Assembly: GCF_002949795.1 (NCBI RefSeq)
Contig: NZ_CP026692.1
Span: forward strand, 1,051,501 to 1,115,500
Reading direction: 5' to 3'
Source: Nostoc sp. 'Lobaria pulmonaria (5183) cyanobiont'
GTDB lineage: Bacteria; Cyanobacteriota; Cyanobacteriia; Cyanobacteriales; Nostocaceae
DNA: 64,000 nt
This document shows positions 17,184 through 59,972 of this stretch, one piece after another. Every line of letters starts with the position of its first letter. Positions within the stretch are counted from its first letter, which is position 1. The notes under the pieces were generated by a model. The model was not told the origin of the DNA, ran no database searches, and saw only the letters and a list, made by a program, of their open reading frames with translations. The translations under genes and the position numbers were made by a program.

Positions 17184-17571
17184 TATTTGCTAAGTTATGG
17201 TAAACCGAAAAACTTAGTAATTACAGGCAAAAGCTTACCACAGACTTCAACTAGCTTTTCATTAGTAGGCAAATCAGCGATGTCTACAACGGGCTACGCC
17301 AACGCACCTTTCAATAACTTGAGAGATGTTTTTGCTATCTTCTGCATGGCTCCATCTTTTGGGTTTGCAGTGGGGCGATCGATCGCCTCAAAATATGACA
17401 GACTAAGATGCTTATGATTTCATCGTAGTTGACACTTGGTAAGAAGTGACCTTAAAAACAACTTCAGTTCTGGGAACCCTAATAATAGCCGTCAATAAAT
17501 ACAACATTTTGTGCAGATGATATCCGCCTAAATAATTAAGTTTAGTAACGATTATTTAAATTAGAGATTCT
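17184..17571. other. Intergenic region upstream of the NERD-sigma-TPR gene
   Basis: About 390 bases. It contains the dispersed motif GATGTCTACAACGGGCTACGCC (17279-17300), also seen in diverged form near 52740-52770, and GGCGATCGATCGCC at 17373-17386. The last 130 bases are AT-rich and presumably hold the promoter. No gene or clear operator is seen. Confidence 0.4.
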
Positions 17572-20454
17572 ATGGAATTCTATCCAGACAATATTTTTGA
17601 TGCCAATAATAATGCCGAGAAAGAAGTTTGGCAACAAGTAAAATCTGCCTTCAGGGATGATTCTGGTGAGGCATTTCATTGTTATCAGCTATTTGACAGA
17701 TATGGAAATCTTGAGCGAGAGATTGATATTCTTATTGTCCATCGTCAGCTAGGACTATGGGTGATTGAATGTAAAGGATGCTACATCAATGATATAGAAG
17801 CTATTAAGGGTGCTGAATGGAAAATGAAAAACTGGTATGAAGACCGCATAAAACCAGTTAACCAAGCACAATACCAGATGTTTGCGCTTAAAAACCATTT
17901 GCGTAAACAGCTAGATTTTTGCGCCTCATTGAACTTAAACTTTAGAGTTGTTATTCCCTTTATTAGCCAAGAACAGTGGCAAAATAAAGGATTTCATAAT
18001 TTGCCAAACATTCAAGGTGTTGTACTGACTAGAGAAGATTTGAAACCTTATACTTTAAAACATAATTTTACTCAGAGTGTTCAAAGTAGACAAAGAAATT
18101 TAACTGATGAACAATGGCGATCGCTGATGTGTCTTTTTGGTGGAACTAATCAGACACCTGTGGACAAAGCATCATTTTCAATATCTAAAGACATCTCTGT
18201 AGAAAAAGAAAAAACGCACAAAATAGATGACTCAAAAACCCCTCGTCCTGTCTGTAAAATAATCAAGTTGCCCCGTTATAAGTTTCCTATTAATAGTTTT
18301 CCTGGTATTTGTGATTACCAGACTAACAACGTAGCTAACAAAATACTCGACAGTATTTATCAGCCTGAGTTCGAGTTAGAAGAACTCTTAACAGACGAAG
18401 AAGAGGACTTGCTGATCATCGATGAAGGTGAAGATGAGTTTTTAGAAGTTCCGTTAGATGAAGAAGATGGTTACTTTGGTAGGAGTGCGAACTCCCATCA
18501 TTGGAAGCAAACTCAGAAAAAGCACTACACAGAAGACTCAATTCGCCTCTATCTAGAAGAAATTGGTCGCATTCGCCTGCTGCGTGCGGATGAAGAAATC
18601 GAATTGGCGCGGAAAATAGTTGACTTAATGGAATTAGAGAGGGTGCGGGAAAGACTCTGTGAGCAGTTGGATCGCGATCCTTGGGATAGTGAATGGGCAA
18701 AAGCTGTACAACTCCCATTACCAGCTTTTCGTTATCGGCTGCATGTTGGTCGCAGGGCGAAAGATAAGATAGTGATATCCAACTTGCGCCTTGTGGTTTC
18801 AATTGCTAAGAAATATATGAATCGCGGCTTGTGTTTCCAAGACTTAGTTCAGGAAGGTAGTCTTGGTTTAATTCGCGCCGCAGAAAAGTTTGACCACGAA
18901 AAAGGTTACAAGTTTTCTACTTATGCTACATGGTGGATTCGTCAGGCAATTACCAGGGCGATTGCCGAGCAATCTCGCACTATTCATCTTCCAGTTCACC
19001 TTTATGAAACCATTTCTCGAATTAAGAAAACCACCAAACTGCTATCTCAAGAAATGGGTCGCAAACCCACAGAAGAAGAAATCGCCACTCGTATGGAAAT
19101 GACCATTGAGAAGTTGCGGTTTATTGCTAAATCAGCTCAGTTACCTATTTCATTAGAAACGCCCATTGGGAAAGAAGAAGATTCTCAATTGGGCTATTTT
19201 ATTGAATACGATGGTGAAACCCCAGAAGAACAAGTTTATAAAAATACGTTGCGGGAAGATTTAGAAAAAGTTCTCGAAAGTCTTAGTTCTCGTGAATGTG
19301 ATGTTATAAAACTGCGCTATGGGTTTGATAATGGACACATGAAAACCCTTGAGGAAATTGGTAAGATTTTTAACAGCACCCGCGAACGGATTCGTCAAAT
19401 TGAGGCGAAAGCACTCCGCAAGTTACGCCACCCCAACCGTAATAGTATTCTTAAAGACTATATCCGTGGATGCCAACCACATGACTTGCAACAGAAGAAA
19501 TATAAACAACAATCTCAAGGGAACCAGAATTATACCGGAAAGACAAAAAATGCTCCTAATTATGTTCAAAAAGGGCTAATATGTTATCGAGATCGGGATT
19601 TTTTGGGAGCAATTGAGAACTTTACCCAAGCACTAGAGCTTAACCCCAATAATGCCCAGTTACACTACCAAAGAGGGCTAGCCAATACTAAAGGAGAATT
19701 TCAGAAAGAGGCGATTGAAGATTTTACTCAAGCTATTAACCTAAACCCTCAATATATAGATGCTTACTACCAGAGGGGTCATGTTCACTACAGTTTGGGA
19801 GATAATCTAAAAGCAATTGAGGATTACAGCGAAATAATATTCCTTAATCCCAATGAAGCCTTAGCTTACTTCTACCGTGGTTTTGTCCGTAGCAATCTGG
19901 GAGAGATGCAGGAAGCCATTGGTAATTACAGCCAAGCATTGAAAATTAAGCCTGACCTTGCTGAAGCTTATTTTCACCGAGGAGTTGCCTATTATCGCTT
20001 AAAAGACTTACATAGAGCAATTGAGGATTACAATTATACTTTACAGATATATCCCAACTTTGCTGAAGCTTACAGTCGGCGGGGGCTTGCACACTATTGC
20101 CTGGGAAATTACCAAGTAGCACTTGAAGATTATTCCCAAGCCGTGCAAATTAATTGTGAAGATACTCTAACATACTACTACCGTGGACTTGTGCATGAGA
20201 ACTTAAGTGACTATATCAAAGCACTTAAGGACTATAACCAAGTTTTGAAAATCAATCCCGCCTTTACCGAAGCTTACTATAACCGGGGTAGTGTTCATTA
20301 CAATCTGGGAAACTATCAACAAGCACTTGAAGATTTAAATCAATTACTGCGTATTAATCCTAACAATTCTCAAGCTTATAACAAACGAAGTAGCATTCGT
20401 GCTGCCCTGAAAGATTACCAAGGTGCAATGGAGGACTTAAAAAACGCTTCATAA
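17572..20454 (+). CDS. NERD nuclease-like domain - sigma-70 factor - TPR array fusion protein
   Basis: One uninterrupted 960-residue frame with three modules. Residues about 10-160 are a NERD (nuclease-related) domain with EREID (48-52) and VIECKG (64-69), that is Asp52, Glu66 and Lys68 of a PD-(D/E)xK site. Residues 160-315 are a linker ending in an acidic tract (268-299). Residues 318-632 are a complete group-1-like cyanobacterial sigma factor: region 1.2 (YTEDSIRLYLEEIGRIRLL), region 2 with DLVQEGSLGLIRA (424-436) and YATWWIRQAI, region 3, and region 4 with the helix-turn-helix TLEEIGKIFNSTRERIRQI (592-610). Residues about 660-960 are eight TPRs. The sigma part is very close to SigA but carries changes in the finger (LGYFIE), RTIHLP and SSRECDV. 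I infer a TPR-regulated alternative sigma factor; whether the nuclease site is active is unknown. No stop or frameshift lies at the junctions. Confidence 0.93.
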   Translation: MEFYPDNIFDANNNAEKEVWQQVKSAFRDDSGEAFHCYQLFDRYGNLEREIDILIVHRQLGLWVIECKGCYINDIEAIKGAEWKMKNWYEDRIKPVNQAQYQMFALKNHLRKQLDFCASLNLNFRVVIPFISQEQWQNKGFHNLPNIQGVVLTREDLKPYTLKHNFTQSVQSRQRNLTDEQWRSLMCLFGGTNQTPVDKASFSISKDISVEKEKTHKIDDSKTPRPVCKIIKLPRYKFPINSFPGICDYQTNNVANKILDSIYQPEFELEELLTDEEEDLLIIDEGEDEFLEVPLDEEDGYFGRSANSHHWKQTQKKHYTEDSIRLYLEEIGRIRLLRADEEIELARKIVDLMELERVRERLCEQLDRDPWDSEWAKAVQLPLPAFRYRLHVGRRAKDKIVISNLRLVVSIAKKYMNRGLCFQDLVQEGSLGLIRAAEKFDHEKGYKFSTYATWWIRQAITRAIAEQSRTIHLPVHLYETISRIKKTTKLLSQEMGRKPTEEEIATRMEMTIEKLRFIAKSAQLPISLETPIGKEEDSQLGYFIEYDGETPEEQVYKNTLREDLEKVLESLSSRECDVIKLRYGFDNGHMKTLEEIGKIFNSTRERIRQIEAKALRKLRHPNRNSILKDYIRGCQPHDLQQKKYKQQSQGNQNYTGKTKNAPNYVQKGLICYRDRDFLGAIENFTQALELNPNNAQLHYQRGLANTKGEFQKEAIEDFTQAINLNPQYIDAYYQRGHVHYSLGDNLKAIEDYSEIIFLNPNEALAYFYRGFVRSNLGEMQEAIGNYSQALKIKPDLAEAYFHRGVAYYRLKDLHRAIEDYNYTLQIYPNFAEAYSRRGLAHYCLGNYQVALEDYSQAVQINCEDTLTYYYRGLVHENLSDYIKALKDYNQVLKINPAFTEAYYNRGSVHYNLGNYQQALEDLNQLLRINPNNSQAYNKRSSIRAALKDYQGAMEDLKNAS

Positions 20455-20585
20455 TTCCACTAGATGCACTATAAAAGTCAAAAAGCTTAAACAAAGAACG
20501 ATCGCAACATTGAGCAGCAACTAGCTAAAAAAGAGCGATCGCACTTCACCAAATACAATGAGGAACTAGTGTTGTACCTCCAAAT

Positions 20586-22340
20586 TTATTTAACACTCAT
20601 AAACCACTCAGTAATCCCCTGAGCGATCGCATCAGCTGTTTTCTTCTGTACCTCTGGGTTCACTATCTGCTCAAATTCATCGGGATTACTCATAAAACCC
20701 AATTCCAGCAACACCGATGGTGCAGCTGTCGGACGTGTCAGCGCCAGGTTATCCCAAAACACACCATAAGAAGGTTTGCCGAGTTTTTTGACTACATAGT
20801 TATGTAAAAACATTGCGAGGTTATGGGCTTGTGGTTGATACCAAAAAGCGGCAAATCCCTTGATTTTTTCGGCATCACCATCATCGGGTAGAGAGTTGTG
20901 ATGTATGGAAATAGCGATCGCAGGTTCTTCTCGACTAATAATTGTCTGACGTTCTACTAGCGAAACCTCCTTATCATCCTCCCGCGTCATCACTACCGTT
21001 GCTCCTTCCTTCACCAACTCGTCGCGCAGCAACTTAGATACCACCAAATTTACATCTTTTTCTAAATATCCAGTTGGGCCACTGGCACCAGATTCTTTAC
21101 CGCCATGCCCTGGATCTAGTACAATCTTGAAATTAGCTAAAAGCTTGCGTCTTGTGTTCCCGATTTTAGGCGGATGACGCAAAGCCAAAACCAGGGTTGT
21201 AGCGTCGTATCTCAGCTTGTATCCCCACTGTTGAGCTTTTTTGAGGTTAAAGGTGTATTTTACTTGTCCTGGGGCTTCCTGTTGCCAGTCAAGGCGATAA
21301 ATTAGGGGGTCATCATCCAGGCGAATTATGTCTGTTTGGGCAGTGGTATTGTAGAGAGTGAGAGCGAAAGCACCCTCACTTTGTTGTACGCTCACGGGTA
21401 CAGGAACTTGCAAGGGGAAAACTATCTCTGTCACACTAGGGAGTTGACGGTATCCGACACTGCGAATTATTGTTTGTGGCGGAACTGCACCAGGTAGAAT
21501 GCGGGTTTCTTTACTATTAATCCAAGCGCCATAATCTAGGCGCAACCATTCACCTTCCCTACCTGTCACTGTTGCGCGTGTGCCTTTGGGCAGTGGTGTG
21601 AGTCGAGAATGATCGGTGCTAGGGCCAGTACGAGCAACGCCTGACTCTACTGTAACCTCAGAAACTGGCAATTGAGCTCTTGAGAGGATTTCAATCTTAC
21701 CAGATCCTGGTTGAGTTATCGTCTTGCCGTCAAGCGTTAGTTGAAATTGAGGTTTTCCTAGATCGGCGGCTGTTGCCACTGTGGTGCAACCTTGATAATT
21801 ACCTACTCTAAACTGGGCATGAGGCTGATTTTGCCCTGTCAAAGCAGCCAAATTACTTGGTAGTTGTGCTTGTTGAGGTTGCGGTAAAAGGGCAGTAGTT
21901 TGATTAGCCAGGGTTACAGAGACATTAGCATTAGGGGGTGCGATCGCGCTAAAACAAATTACTTCTCCCGGTAATCTGGCAATGTCAACTGCGGGAGTCA
22001 GGGAATCTTTCGCAAAGGCTACCCCCTGTGGTAACTCAGGGCTAGTGTTAAGCCTGATCACCTTAATCTTAAGTTCTTGATTCTGGCGACGCACAGTAAA
22101 AAGATTCTCCCCCAATTGCAAGGGGAAACTAGGGGAAAAATGACCAGCTTTGCTGCGGGTAATTGGCTTACTATTGATCAAAACCTGACCATCTGGTGGT
22201 GCAGTGCCCAGAAAAAAGATTTTTTGGGCACTTGTCTGGTAGTTTGTCTGAGGAAAAATGACTATAAGAGATGGCTGTGCCAATGCTATGGAGGAAGAGA
22301 GAATAAAGCCTAATATTACTAGTCCTAAGAGGTTTTTCAC
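20586..22340 (-). CDS. N-acetylmuramoyl-L-alanine amidase with SH3b and AMIN-like regions
   Basis: A 584-residue exported cell-wall amidase. Residues 1-22 are a signal peptide. About 230-280 is a bacterial SH3 segment (VESGVARTGPSTDHSRLTPL). About 290-390 resembles an AMIN region. Residues 400-582 are an Amidase_3 catalytic domain with zinc ligands in LDPGHGG, EKDVN and SIHHNS, and the catalytic Glu in LLELGFMSN. It cleaves the amide bond between MurNAc and the stem peptide; in filamentous cyanobacteria related AmiC enzymes are needed for septal nanopores and cell communication. Divergent from pyrG with an 84-bp gap. Confidence 0.88.
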   Translation of the reverse strand: MKNLLGLVILGFILSSSIALAQPSLIVIFPQTNYQTSAQKIFFLGTAPPDGQVLINSKPITRSKAGHFSPSFPLQLGENLFTVRRQNQELKIKVIRLNTSPELPQGVAFAKDSLTPAVDIARLPGEVICFSAIAPPNANVSVTLANQTTALLPQPQQAQLPSNLAALTGQNQPHAQFRVGNYQGCTTVATAADLGKPQFQLTLDGKTITQPGSGKIEILSRAQLPVSEVTVESGVARTGPSTDHSRLTPLPKGTRATVTGREGEWLRLDYGAWINSKETRILPGAVPPQTIIRSVGYRQLPSVTEIVFPLQVPVPVSVQQSEGAFALTLYNTTAQTDIIRLDDDPLIYRLDWQQEAPGQVKYTFNLKKAQQWGYKLRYDATTLVLALRHPPKIGNTRRKLLANFKIVLDPGHGGKESGASGPTGYLEKDVNLVVSKLLRDELVKEGATVVMTREDDKEVSLVERQTIISREEPAIAISIHHNSLPDDGDAEKIKGFAAFWYQPQAHNLAMFLHNYVVKKLGKPSYGVFWDNLALTRPTAAPSVLLELGFMSNPDEFEQIVNPEVQKKTADAIAQGITEWFMSVK

Positions 22341-57343: not shown

Positions 57344-58861
57344 ATGCATCCTCTTGGCACAGTACTCCGCAGTCGTTATAAAATTATTCATCCCTTGGGA
57401 AGTGGCGGATTTGGGGAGACATATTTGGCAGAAGATTTGGATATACCTACAACTCCTAAGCCTAAATGTGTTGTCAAACATCTGAAGCCACAAAACCAGA
57501 GTGAAGGACTTCTGAAGATTGCTAAAGGTTTATTTAACCGGGAAGCTGAAATTTTATATCGCTTAGACAACATTCACAACCAAGTTCCCAAACTATTCGC
57601 CCATTTTGAAGAAAATGGCGAATTTTACCTAGTACAAGAATTTATTGATGGGCATAACTTAAGCAAAGAAATAATCGCAGGTCAGCCTTGGGGTGAAGCA
57701 GAAGTAAAAAAACTGCTCAGGGATGTTTTAGAAGTTTTAGTATTTATCCATCAACAAAGTATTATTCATCGTGATATTAAGCCACAGAATATCATGCGTC
57801 GTCATCAAGACGGAAAGATTGTGCTGATTGATTTTGGAGCAGTGAAAGAAATTAAAGGCTTGGAGACGAATACTCAAGGTCTAGTCACATCAAGCATCCT
57901 GATTGGCACAAATGGCTATATGCCAGATGAACAAGCTAATGGTAAGCCGAAACTATCTAGCGATGTGTATGCAGTAGGTATGCTAGGAATTCAAGCACTG
58001 ACAGGCGTACCGCCTCAAAATTTACCCGAAGATCCCGTAACAGGTGAAATAATTTGGCGGGATCGGGCGAATGTCAGCGACAGATTTGTCGAGGTGTTAA
58101 CAAATATGGTGCGCTCTCACTTTAGCCAGCGTTACCAAACAGCAGCAGAAGCGTTGCAAGCACTTACTCAATCAACACCATCACCAAAACCAAAGTCAGA
58201 TCGCCAGCGATCGCAATCTAATCGGAAAGTTATGGTAACAGGCGGAGCAGTTTTACTTGGATGTATCATGTCTTTGTATATGGTATCTAAATATTTTGCT
58301 CAATCACCAACCCCTCCAAATCCACAAGCAGTTACTCCGAAACCGCTTCCTACAATCAACAAATTCTCTCAGCTACCTTGCGATAGCGATCAACAGCTAT
58401 CCTCACCCCCTACAGCTACAGGAAATCCAACACACGAAACTAACGTCTATAAATATTACGGGCAGATCAATCCAAAAACGAAAGAAGCCAATGGTAAAGG
58501 GTTGATGATTTTTAAGAAGAATCAATTTCAATACTATGGAGACTTTAAGAATAATAAACGTAGTGGTTGTGGGAGATTATCATATCCGGTAAAAAGTAAT
58601 ATTAACTATTATTTAGGGCAGTTTGAAAATGATGAGTTGCAAGGGCTGGGATATTTAAAATTGAGAAACGGAAACGAATATAGAGGAAACTTTGTTAAGA
58701 GTAAATGTCAAGGTAAAGGAGTATATATATATGCAGATAAAACTGAGCAAGATGGAATCTGGCGTGAAGATAAGTTAGAAGGAAGTGACTTATTATGTAA
58801 TAAGGAGCCTTCAGCATCTAGTATGCTAACTATCAGCTTTCTCAGCCTAAAACCCTTTTAA
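57344..58861 (+). CDS. Transmembrane Ser/Thr kinase with C-terminal MORN repeats
   Basis: A 505-residue protein. Residues 12-275 are a Hanks-type kinase: LGSGGFGETYLAED (18-31), Lys45 in VVKHL, HRDIKPQNI (catalytic Asp144), IDFGAVKEI (Asp163). One transmembrane helix at about 297-317 is followed by a Pro-rich stretch and an outer region (about 370-485) with MORN motifs: YYGDFKNNKRSGCGRLSYP, YYLGQFENDELQGLGYLKL, EYRGNFVKSKCQGKGVYIY. The topology places the MORN block in the periplasm, acting as a sensor or membrane/wall contact for the inner kinase. The MORN block is nearly identical in DNA to that of the next gene. Confidence 0.9.
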   Translation: MHPLGTVLRSRYKIIHPLGSGGFGETYLAEDLDIPTTPKPKCVVKHLKPQNQSEGLLKIAKGLFNREAEILYRLDNIHNQVPKLFAHFEENGEFYLVQEFIDGHNLSKEIIAGQPWGEAEVKKLLRDVLEVLVFIHQQSIIHRDIKPQNIMRRHQDGKIVLIDFGAVKEIKGLETNTQGLVTSSILIGTNGYMPDEQANGKPKLSSDVYAVGMLGIQALTGVPPQNLPEDPVTGEIIWRDRANVSDRFVEVLTNMVRSHFSQRYQTAAEALQALTQSTPSPKPKSDRQRSQSNRKVMVTGGAVLLGCIMSLYMVSKYFAQSPTPPNPQAVTPKPLPTINKFSQLPCDSDQQLSSPPTATGNPTHETNVYKYYGQINPKTKEANGKGLMIFKKNQFQYYGDFKNNKRSGCGRLSYPVKSNINYYLGQFENDELQGLGYLKLRNGNEYRGNFVKSKCQGKGVYIYADKTEQDGIWREDKLEGSDLLCNKEPSASSMLTISFLSLKPF

Positions 58862-59273
58862 CGGTACTGTACAAGAGATTAATAATTAACTTAAGTTAAT
58901 TAAAAGACTTTGATGTGGCTTTCGTTACTTCAGCAATTTTAGATTACGCAGTTTATTAAACTAGCACTTTACTATTAATTTTCCCCAAAATTGGCGAAAT
59001 ATCCGAAAATATTAAGAAATATTTAAGTTTATTTTCATTTATGCTAGTTAAATACATCTAATGGTTTATACTTAGTGTATTAACAGTGTTTTGATAAATT
59101 TAAATATTTATACTGAATTATCTATAATTACGTACTTAATATGTATTTTTTAACTATGCCAAACTATGGGCTTGATACCGTTATTTATAAGTATTAAGTA
59201 AGTACCATTTTCCAGAGAATTAGTATTTATGAATGAATTTTAGGTTGTATACATTAGAAAAGAAAGGTATTTT
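58862..59273. other. AT-rich intergenic region
   Basis: About 410 bases of very AT-rich sequence with no coding frame. No clear terminator or promoter motif is seen; AAGAAAGG near 59262 is the ribosome binding site of the next gene. Confidence 0.35.
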
Positions 59274-59972
59274 ATGAAGATAAAATTTATACTTTATGCT
59301 TCTTGTTTACTTATTTCTACAAGTTTAGGTGTTCTTCCAATACAGCAAATACTAGGGCAAGAAGCATCGCCAGCATCTCCTGAACCAAACACTGTACCAG
59401 GTTCCCCAACAGAACCATCCTCTACGCCAACTGCTTCACCATCTCCTACACCAACTGCTGTACCAGCTCCCACAACAACACCAAATACGATACCAACTTC
59501 TACAGAATTCTCCCAACTACCTTGCGATAAAGATCAACAGCTATCCTCGCCCCCCCCAGCCACAGGCAAACCAACCTGGGAAACTAACGTCTATAAATAT
59601 TACGGGCAGATCAGTCCAAAAACGAAAGAAGCCAATGGTAAAGGGTTAATGATTTTTAAGCAGAATCAATTTCAGTACTATGGAGACTTTAAAAATAATA
59701 AACGTAGTGGTTGTGGGAGATTATCATATCCGGTAGAAAGTAATATTAACTATTATTTAGGGCAGTTTAAAAATGATCAACCTCAAGGGTTGGGATATTT
59801 AAAACTGAGAAACGGAAACGAATATAGAGGAAACTTTGCTAAGAATAAATGTCAAGGAAAAGGAGTATATATATTTACAGATAAAACTGAGAAAGATGGA
59901 CTCTGGCGTGAAGATAAGTTAGAAGGAAGCGATAATTTATCGTGTAAAGAGTTTAACCGTAATTATCGATAG
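59274..59972 (+). CDS. Secreted MORN-repeat protein
   Basis: A 232-residue exported protein: signal peptide 1-29 (hydrophobic core LYASCLLISTSLGVL), a Pro/Thr/Ser-rich linker (30-80), then a MORN block (about 100-225) matching the periplasmic part of the kinase at 57344. The DNA identity between the two blocks is about 95 percent by eye from 58430 versus 59579 onward. It starts ATG at 59274 with AAAGG upstream. It may bind the same target as the kinase's outer domain and so act as a ligand or competitor; that is inference. Confidence 0.83.
   Translation: MKIKFILYASCLLISTSLGVLPIQQILGQEASPASPEPNTVPGSPTEPSSTPTASPSPTPTAVPAPTTTPNTIPTSTEFSQLPCDKDQQLSSPPPATGKPTWETNVYKYYGQISPKTKEANGKGLMIFKQNQFQYYGDFKNNKRSGCGRLSYPVESNINYYLGQFKNDQPQGLGYLKLRNGNEYRGNFAKNKCQGKGVYIFTDKTEKDGLWREDKLEGSDNLSCKEFNRNYR

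Follow-up and report, generated by a model that had tools for sequence, protein, structure and literature searches.

Principal sigma factors are regarded as free, essential subunits, and ECF factors contain regions 2 and 4 only. The nearest published idea found to the locus reported here is TALON/TOTE, in which, according to the accessible part of a preprint, NERD, TPR and TATA-binding protein come together as separate genes (PMC12458937). An N-terminal NERD domain on a larger multidomain protein occurs in PglW of type 2 BREX, interpreted by its authors, in the available text, as a backup effector (PMC12839542), and NERD is listed with Mokosh type I and Nhi-like in the accessible sections of another paper (PMC10952713). 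On the sigma side, the TPR tail that follows the sigma part of ECF42 factors is described as required for activity (PMC7730460, available text), and MzaA, which belongs to the MZA defence system, is named as a sigma factor (PMC9523054, available text). The word 'fused' does not occur in the accessible portion of a review of cyanobacterial sigma factors (PMC2758279). No publication describing a fusion of NERD, sigma factor and TPR was found in the available texts of the literature covered, subscription journals lying mostly outside its scope, so that the architecture seems undescribed, as a preliminary description of this DNA had supposed.

The window, by which is meant the whole stretch of 64,000 nucleotides that was analysed, is contig 1, 1,051,501-1,115,500, of a 7.34-Mb genome (G000). 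Within it, 17572..20454 (+) is a single ATG-started frame of 960 aa with no internal stops, whose product carries, from N to C terminus, a NERD domain, a near-complete SigA-like sigma factor and about eight TPRs. The preliminary description had reported these modules in one frame with no stop at the junctions, and so they are found, with 960 codons open here and the same order open in G199, G348 and G303. An assembly join or frameshift artefact was rejected, since four genomes carry the modules in this order within one uninterrupted frame, and a pattern of always separate modules was likewise not seen. The proposed parts, NERD, Sigma70_r1_2 to r4 and TPR, were all recovered by Pfam. The NERD domain (residues 13-112, 17608..17907, +) was found in a scan of residues 1-300 at E 5e-11, with 43.5 bits against the PF08378 gathering score of 22.1, and, when the whole protein was scanned, did not figure in the 25 families shown out of 30; NCBIfam gave no family on residues 1-200, and a profile search of solved structures gave none related to NERD at E up to 1. 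A linker (residues 201-252, 18172..18327, +), for which a scan of residues 201-319 gave no Pfam family, leads to an acidic SigA N-terminus (residues 253-321, 18328..18534, +, by alignment to the genome's own SigA) and to sigma regions 1.2 to 4.2 (residues 322-632, 18535..19467, +). The TPR array of about eight repeats (residues 660-958, 19549..20445, +) was placed by Pfam and its extent partly by eye, TPR_11 matching eight stretches of the 960-aa protein. The upstream stretch (17377..17571, +) is homologous to that of the G199 copy, which occupies a different slot.

The fusion appears to belong to none of the families tested and to be a new arrangement of known parts. Its sigma part resembles cyanobacterial SigA (group 1, RpoD), being 88% identical to the genome's own SigA over 330 residues and passing RpoD model NF005643 (641.6 against a cut-off of 500), but it is embedded between two modules and altered at 28 of 298 SigA-invariant positions. 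The NERD part is 45-51% identical over residues 1-194 to NERD-helicase proteins (PADLOC C3a187 NERD+UvrD; RTasNERD-Hel), whereas the helicase half has no counterpart: residues 253-958 are taken up by sigma and TPR instead, and the 25 Pfam matches shown, out of 30, include no helicase family. With TALON/TOTE, as far as the accessible text of the preprint describes it, the fusion shares the combination of NERD and TPR with a factor of basal transcription (there the TATA-binding protein), yet those are separate genes with a YprA helicase and here there is one polypeptide with a bacterial sigma; OB/CSD or TBP families are absent among the Pfam matches shown, and no neighbouring ORF is YprA-like by eye, most neighbours being unscanned. 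ECF42 factors, in the available description, share the order of sigma then TPR tail, but the fusion has a full group 1 sigma, with regions 1.2 and 3, plus NERD, and is not of that family. PglW, in the text available, is similarly a large multidomain protein with an N-terminal NERD, but with kinase and other modules where the fusion has sigma and TPR. MzaA likewise has a sigma-70 domain within a larger protein and is matched by the window's sigma part, although its N-terminal part is unmatched, the match spanning positions 428-668 of a profile of 683 and thus falling short of full length.

Both Pfam PF08378 and the residues of the D...ExK motif place the N-terminal part in the NERD family (PD-(D/E)XK). 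The motif residues Asp52, Glu66 and Lys68, as given in the preliminary description, are invariant in 33 of 33 aligned NERD domains, chosen from the fetched loci with L065 (which has a stop) and four duplicate loci left out. In a midpoint-rooted tree of these domains, which carries a long-branch warning for L057, the chimeric NERDs, which come from seven loci, group in a single clade (99/98) that shares a fork with seven rows labelled NERD-helicase (91/77); a fork that takes in L057 as well has 100/99. The rows labelled NERD-helicase fall into three lineages and are not drawn as a clade of their own; six of the seven labels (all but L097) were read by eye, and 19 other rows are unclassified. 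Given this one clade of chimeric NERDs beside NERD-helicase proteins, a single origin of the fusion is the simplest reading. The capture of SigA is old. The block common to both kinds of protein, residues 1-194, has the same start and the same motif residues, and the helicase half would have been replaced by sigma and TPR. Helicase relatives in G134 contig 3 and G227 match 'C3a187 NERD+UvrD' (E 2e-17 and 2e-14) and the DRT-associated model 'RTasNERD-Hel', the best PADLOC match of both being an undescribed 'Helicase' model. The first of them (L083) gave UvrD families and a helicase model below cut-off, with NERD unlisted by Pfam and NCBIfam, and its gene is annotated in the public record as a nuclease-related-domain helicase. 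At E up to 0.001 the fusion itself matches only two PADLOC models, MzaA by its sigma part and RTasNERD-Hel by NERD (E 4e-6). The preliminary description had the sigma factor captured between the two other modules, which is wrong or unproven: no NERD-TPR ancestor was found, the closest NERD relatives carrying a helicase, and no TPR donor, other TPRs of the family being at most 51% identical (matches at E up to 1e-62).

The sigma factor had been called complete from region 1.2 to region 4.2, and Sigma70_r1_2 (322-353), r2 (402-470), r3 (479-554) and r4 (567-620) all exceed their Pfam cut-offs. Its start had been put at residue 318, too late, as SigA-derived sequence begins at about residue 253 in the alignment to the own SigA and includes the acidic SigA N-terminus. 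Region content and the RpoD model are those of a group 1 sigma factor, but the fusion is not the cell's sole principal sigma factor, because a separate SigA is present in G000 (from G000:C1:443880 on). Drift was scored at 298 positions invariant in eight aligned SigAs, counted in six regions, and amounts to 28 altered positions in the window, 17 in G199 and 67 in G303. Five of 21 SigA-invariant positions are changed in the region 3.2 'sigma finger' (residues 541-562, 19192..19257, +). Extra residues just before region 3.2 (13 in G199 and G215, 11 in G303) read as the old state, for which the SigA form would have been substituted in G000, G200, G348 and G352. The motif QDL(I/V)QEGSLGL, which we take to be the stretch that binds core polymerase, is retained in seven of seven aligned fusion copies. 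The window copy largely retains both this stretch and the helices of regions 2.4 and 4.2, with WWIRQAITR intact and V602S the one change in the region 4.2 helix. SigA-invariant positions are hit by R472H in G000, by R462H in G348 and G352, and by R457S, Q458K and T461N in G303; all of these are presumably near -10 contacts, and the three of G303 are assumed to correspond to residues by which E. coli RpoD contacts the -12 position.

In a rival reading, which we consider rather unlikely, the protein would be an alternative, regulated sigma factor that binds core and initiates at promoters of SigA type or at shifted ones, with the TPR part binding a regulator and NERD having become a nucleic-acid-binding or folding module. 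Passage of the RpoD cut-off, the unchanged WWIRQAITR and a region 4.2 helix with V602S alone are in its favour, as are the three substitutions of G303, which possibly denote a shifted promoter choice, and the requirement of ECF42 factors for their TPR tail, as described in the accessible text (PMC7730460). Residues 318-632 also have a dN/dS of 0.05-0.18 in pairwise NG86 comparisons, whose pairs are not independent, having branches in common, and in which some sigma dS values are saturated, but this low ratio is partly due to overwriting by sigA. Moreover, R472H of the window, R462H of G348 and the longer finger of G199, G215 and G303 strike SigA-invariant positions, and a role as sigma factor would leave the invariance of the NERD motif, the patchiness and the decay of the gene unexplained.

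That the sigma part is a recent duplicate of sigA, as first proposed, was rejected in favour of an old capture, parts of which were overwritten later by sigA tracts. Between G000 and G199, dS is 0.10 for NERD, 0.08 for TPR and 0.57 for sigma, with reference values of 0.22 for SigA and 0.24-0.26 for three genes of the old slot. Sigma dS is about 4-8 times that of the flanks when G000, G199 and G215 are paired with one another, and 1.5-3 times for G000-G348 and G348-G352. Of five pairs tested at four-fold sites, four have more differences in sigma than in the flanks, with p from 9e-11 to 6e-5; G348-G352 does not reach significance (p 0.096). Within region 2 of G000-G215, sigma dS is 0.07, which is the flank level, and neither copy seems overwritten there. 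In the damaged fusion of G134, 445 nt are 99.1% identical to sigA of the same genome, and its NERD is just 54% identical to that of the window. A run test of 72 comparisons, from which the G352 fusion and G134 SigA were left out and whose best 24 were reported, gave a run of 61 identical polymorphic sites between the G199 fusion and G168 SigA that was reached in 0 of 2000 permutations. Among these best 24 of 72, 0 of 2000 was reached by one fusion-fusion pair too, whose mirror run stood at 0.001, and the next sigA pairs (0.008, 0.051, 0.11 and 0.11) would fail correction. Because G199's own SigA fits its tract less well than G168 SigA, the donor appears to be a related SigA, not necessarily the present own copy. 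G200 and G348 have high local identity to sigA that is not significant in the run test. The sigma module has been overwritten in part by sigA tracts, and more than once, clearly so in G134 and G199.

In another reading the sigma part would be an integrated decoy, bait that mimics host SigA; an invader protein that seizes sigma would bind it and so release NERD, and overwriting by sigA would keep the bait current. We hold this to be improbable. Tracts of sigA in different lineages (clear in G134 and G199, and by local identity, not significant in the run test, in G200 and G348) would fit it, as would drift of finger and promoter-contact positions where SigA is invariant and the fusion to a domain known from candidate defence proteins. 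Yet no sigma-binding invader protein is tied to these hosts, selection is not needed for the overwriting of a similar paralogue, and the G199 tract is best matched by G168 SigA instead of the present own copy. Were the sigma part indeed bait, it would represent a new class of immune sensor, through which the cell notices a hijacked polymerase, and, to our knowledge, the first known example in which gene conversion keeps such a bait fresh.

The fusion gene is patchy and often decaying or lost. A search with residues 1-300 matches 11 of 217 family genomes at E up to 1e-35, of which six carry the fusion or a damaged form (G000, G199, G215, G303, G348 and G352, frames read by eye) and five carry NERD-helicase proteins (G227, G307, G323, G324 and G337, by eye). 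The TPR query matches 47 of 217 at E up to 1e-62 and adds G200 and G221; the fusion locus, remnants included, is present in at least 8 of the 217, smaller remnants escaping the queries. Four of 388 genomes match at order level at E up to 1e-45, including G447 and G134, the latter outside the family and with a damaged fusion copy, and three of 388 at class level at the same threshold, namely the window's own genome, G705 (193-aa frame) and G587 (777-aa frame). Twenty of 72,556 plasmid records match residues 1-300, none across 80% of the query, and the ten listed of these are all confined to residues 1-226. A phage origin was tried as well: phage records held no relatives of residues 1-300, and of the stretches in viral contigs six fit the peptide pattern and none encodes a relative, in a scan that detects close relatives only.

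Intact fusions are found in G000 (960 aa), G199 (978), G348 (972) and G303 (988), and the remaining five of the nine loci are damaged or shortened. G215 has one in-frame stop between NERD and sigma; G352 has an open 780-aa frame without sigma region 4 and the first TPRs; G200 lacks NERD, in an assembly that is 72% complete, yet has both flanking genes on the contig; G221 retains a TPR fragment alone; and G134 keeps NERD plus sigma up to about residue 437, followed by remnants of the TPRs in a different frame. With five of nine loci in this state, the gene is dispensable. A chance chimera on its way out, persisting by movement and slow decay without function in the window's lineage, would account for these broken loci and for the few genomes that carry the gene. 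Region 4 points the same way, being altered at 12 of 70 SigA-invariant positions in the window versus 4, 4 and 5 in G199, G215 and G200 (the intact G348 and G303 copies have 11 each). We nevertheless judge such a relic quite improbable, since four copies are open across 960-988 codons, the NERD motif residues are invariant and selection on the flanking modules is evident.

NERD and TPR are under purifying selection, with dN/dS of 0.13-0.41 and 0.21-0.39, respectively, across the computed, non-independent pairs; the linker has 0.11-0.73, with upper bounds often above 1. In the closest intact pair, G000-G199, dN/dS is 0.31 [0.13-0.76] for NERD and 0.39 [0.21-0.73] for TPR, bootstrap ranges below 1 that count against a chance chimera. 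Neutral simulations, each begun from one member of five pairs, gave mean residue changes in NERD plus TPR of 44, 44, 149, 155 and 258, against 34, 32, 104, 104 and 194 observed; the observed values lie under the lowest of 400 neutral runs in four of five pairs and equal the lowest in G199-G000. Neutral runs free of stops are likewise rare (0.07 at G000-G199, at most 0.003 for three deeper pairs), which is also difficult to reconcile with a relic. A principal sigma factor was joined long ago to a TPR scaffold and a domain resembling a nuclease, and selection has kept the product in several cyanobacteria while sigA resupplied parts of its sigma module.

A slot between a transporter and an aldo/keto reductase holds the gene in G199, G215, G200, G221, G348 and G352, with further ORFs inside it in G215 and G348. 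In G000 this slot is without the gene, just a 46-nt stretch of which matches there, and the gene sits, together with about 195 upstream bases, between Uma2-like and amidase-like genes (named by eye). The window's slot is occupied in G215 by a gene for a helicase, which has restriction-like PADLOC matches and, by eye, includes an HNH part, and in G168 by a transposase-like ORF with remnants (by eye). The fusion gene, to judge from these positions, has moved at least once. No exact 10-, 12- or 14-mer, direct or inverted, is common to 17184-17571 and 20455-20600 as a border repeat of the moved segment. Because dS between G000 and G348 is 0.57 for NERD and 0.35 for TPR, below the 1.06-1.18 of three old-slot genes and the 1.02 of SigA, lateral exchange or recombination of the fusion gene is suggested. 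A methyltransferase-like gene adjoins the fusion in G348. There is no conserved partner gene, no defence gene stands beside the window or G303 copies by eye, and the two scanned neighbours in the window gave no PADLOC match.

The protein is tentatively read as an accessory, probably anti-invader NERD effector, whose captured SigA would dock on RNA polymerase or serve as bait. The sigma module would dock the protein on core RNA polymerase, on promoter-like DNA or on both, which would bring the NERD nuclease to transcription-initiation complexes or confront a foreign protein with a surface resembling SigA. The TPR tail may keep the protein idle or sense a partner, and upon release NERD would cut nucleic acid; until triggered, the protein is expected to be silent or harmless. 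If docking on RNA polymerase is true, a nuclease would be delivered to transcription start sites. The architecture intact in four genomes, the NERD clade beside helicase proteins that match candidate-defence models, the invariant D52, E66 and K68, the purifying selection on NERD and TPR and the sigA tracts count for an effector. So do the restriction-like or transposase-like genes in the window's slot elsewhere, the methyltransferase-like neighbour in G348 and, as far as the accessible text describes it, the TALON precedent (PMC12458937). Counting against an effector are the missing conserved partner gene, dispensability, the lack of relatives of residues 1-300 in phage records and in the viral-contig pattern scan, the undescribed 'Helicase' model as best PADLOC match of the helicase relatives, the below-cut-off helicase scores of L083 and the few PADLOC matches of the fusion itself. 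Gene conversion, moreover, also occurs in duplicates that have no use. A smaller observation concerns annotation, for which some caution is advisable, as the fusion passes a curated RpoD model through its sigma part.

In three copies of the NERD-sigma-TPR fusion (L086 in genome G199, L087 in G215 and L101 in G303), the sigma finger of region 3.2 is adjoined by 11-13 extra residues. If the fusion is an active sigma factor, initiation should be altered by this enlargement at the finger. Another SigA fusion, 1237 aa in length and unlike the NERD-sigma-TPR architecture, is encoded in genome G140 (L050:4863-8576, minus strand), and comprises WD40 repeats and a full sigma factor, as well as two features recognised by eye, namely Ig-like segments and a run of proline and threonine. 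The WD40-SigA fusion and the G140 genome's own sigA are 91.8% identical across 982 nt, and SigA may have been captured repeatedly in cyanobacteria.

GCGATCGC or similar motifs, which we take to be of the HIP1 type, are present close to both borders of the relocated segment (window 17360-17400 and 20535-20545). In G215, the site at which the window carries the fusion is occupied by a helicase gene (L155:5174-7762, plus strand), with matches to PbeA and restriction enzymes and an HNH part identified by eye. In G348, the interval that separates the fusion from the aldo/keto reductase gene (L099:9451-12247) encodes a 613-aa protein with matches to Type II methyltransferase, together with HicB-like and PIN-like ORFs, both named by eye. 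Elsewhere in the window (57344-59972), a kinase-like gene is followed by an ORF, and the C-terminal MORN-like parts of the two appear, by eye, very similar.
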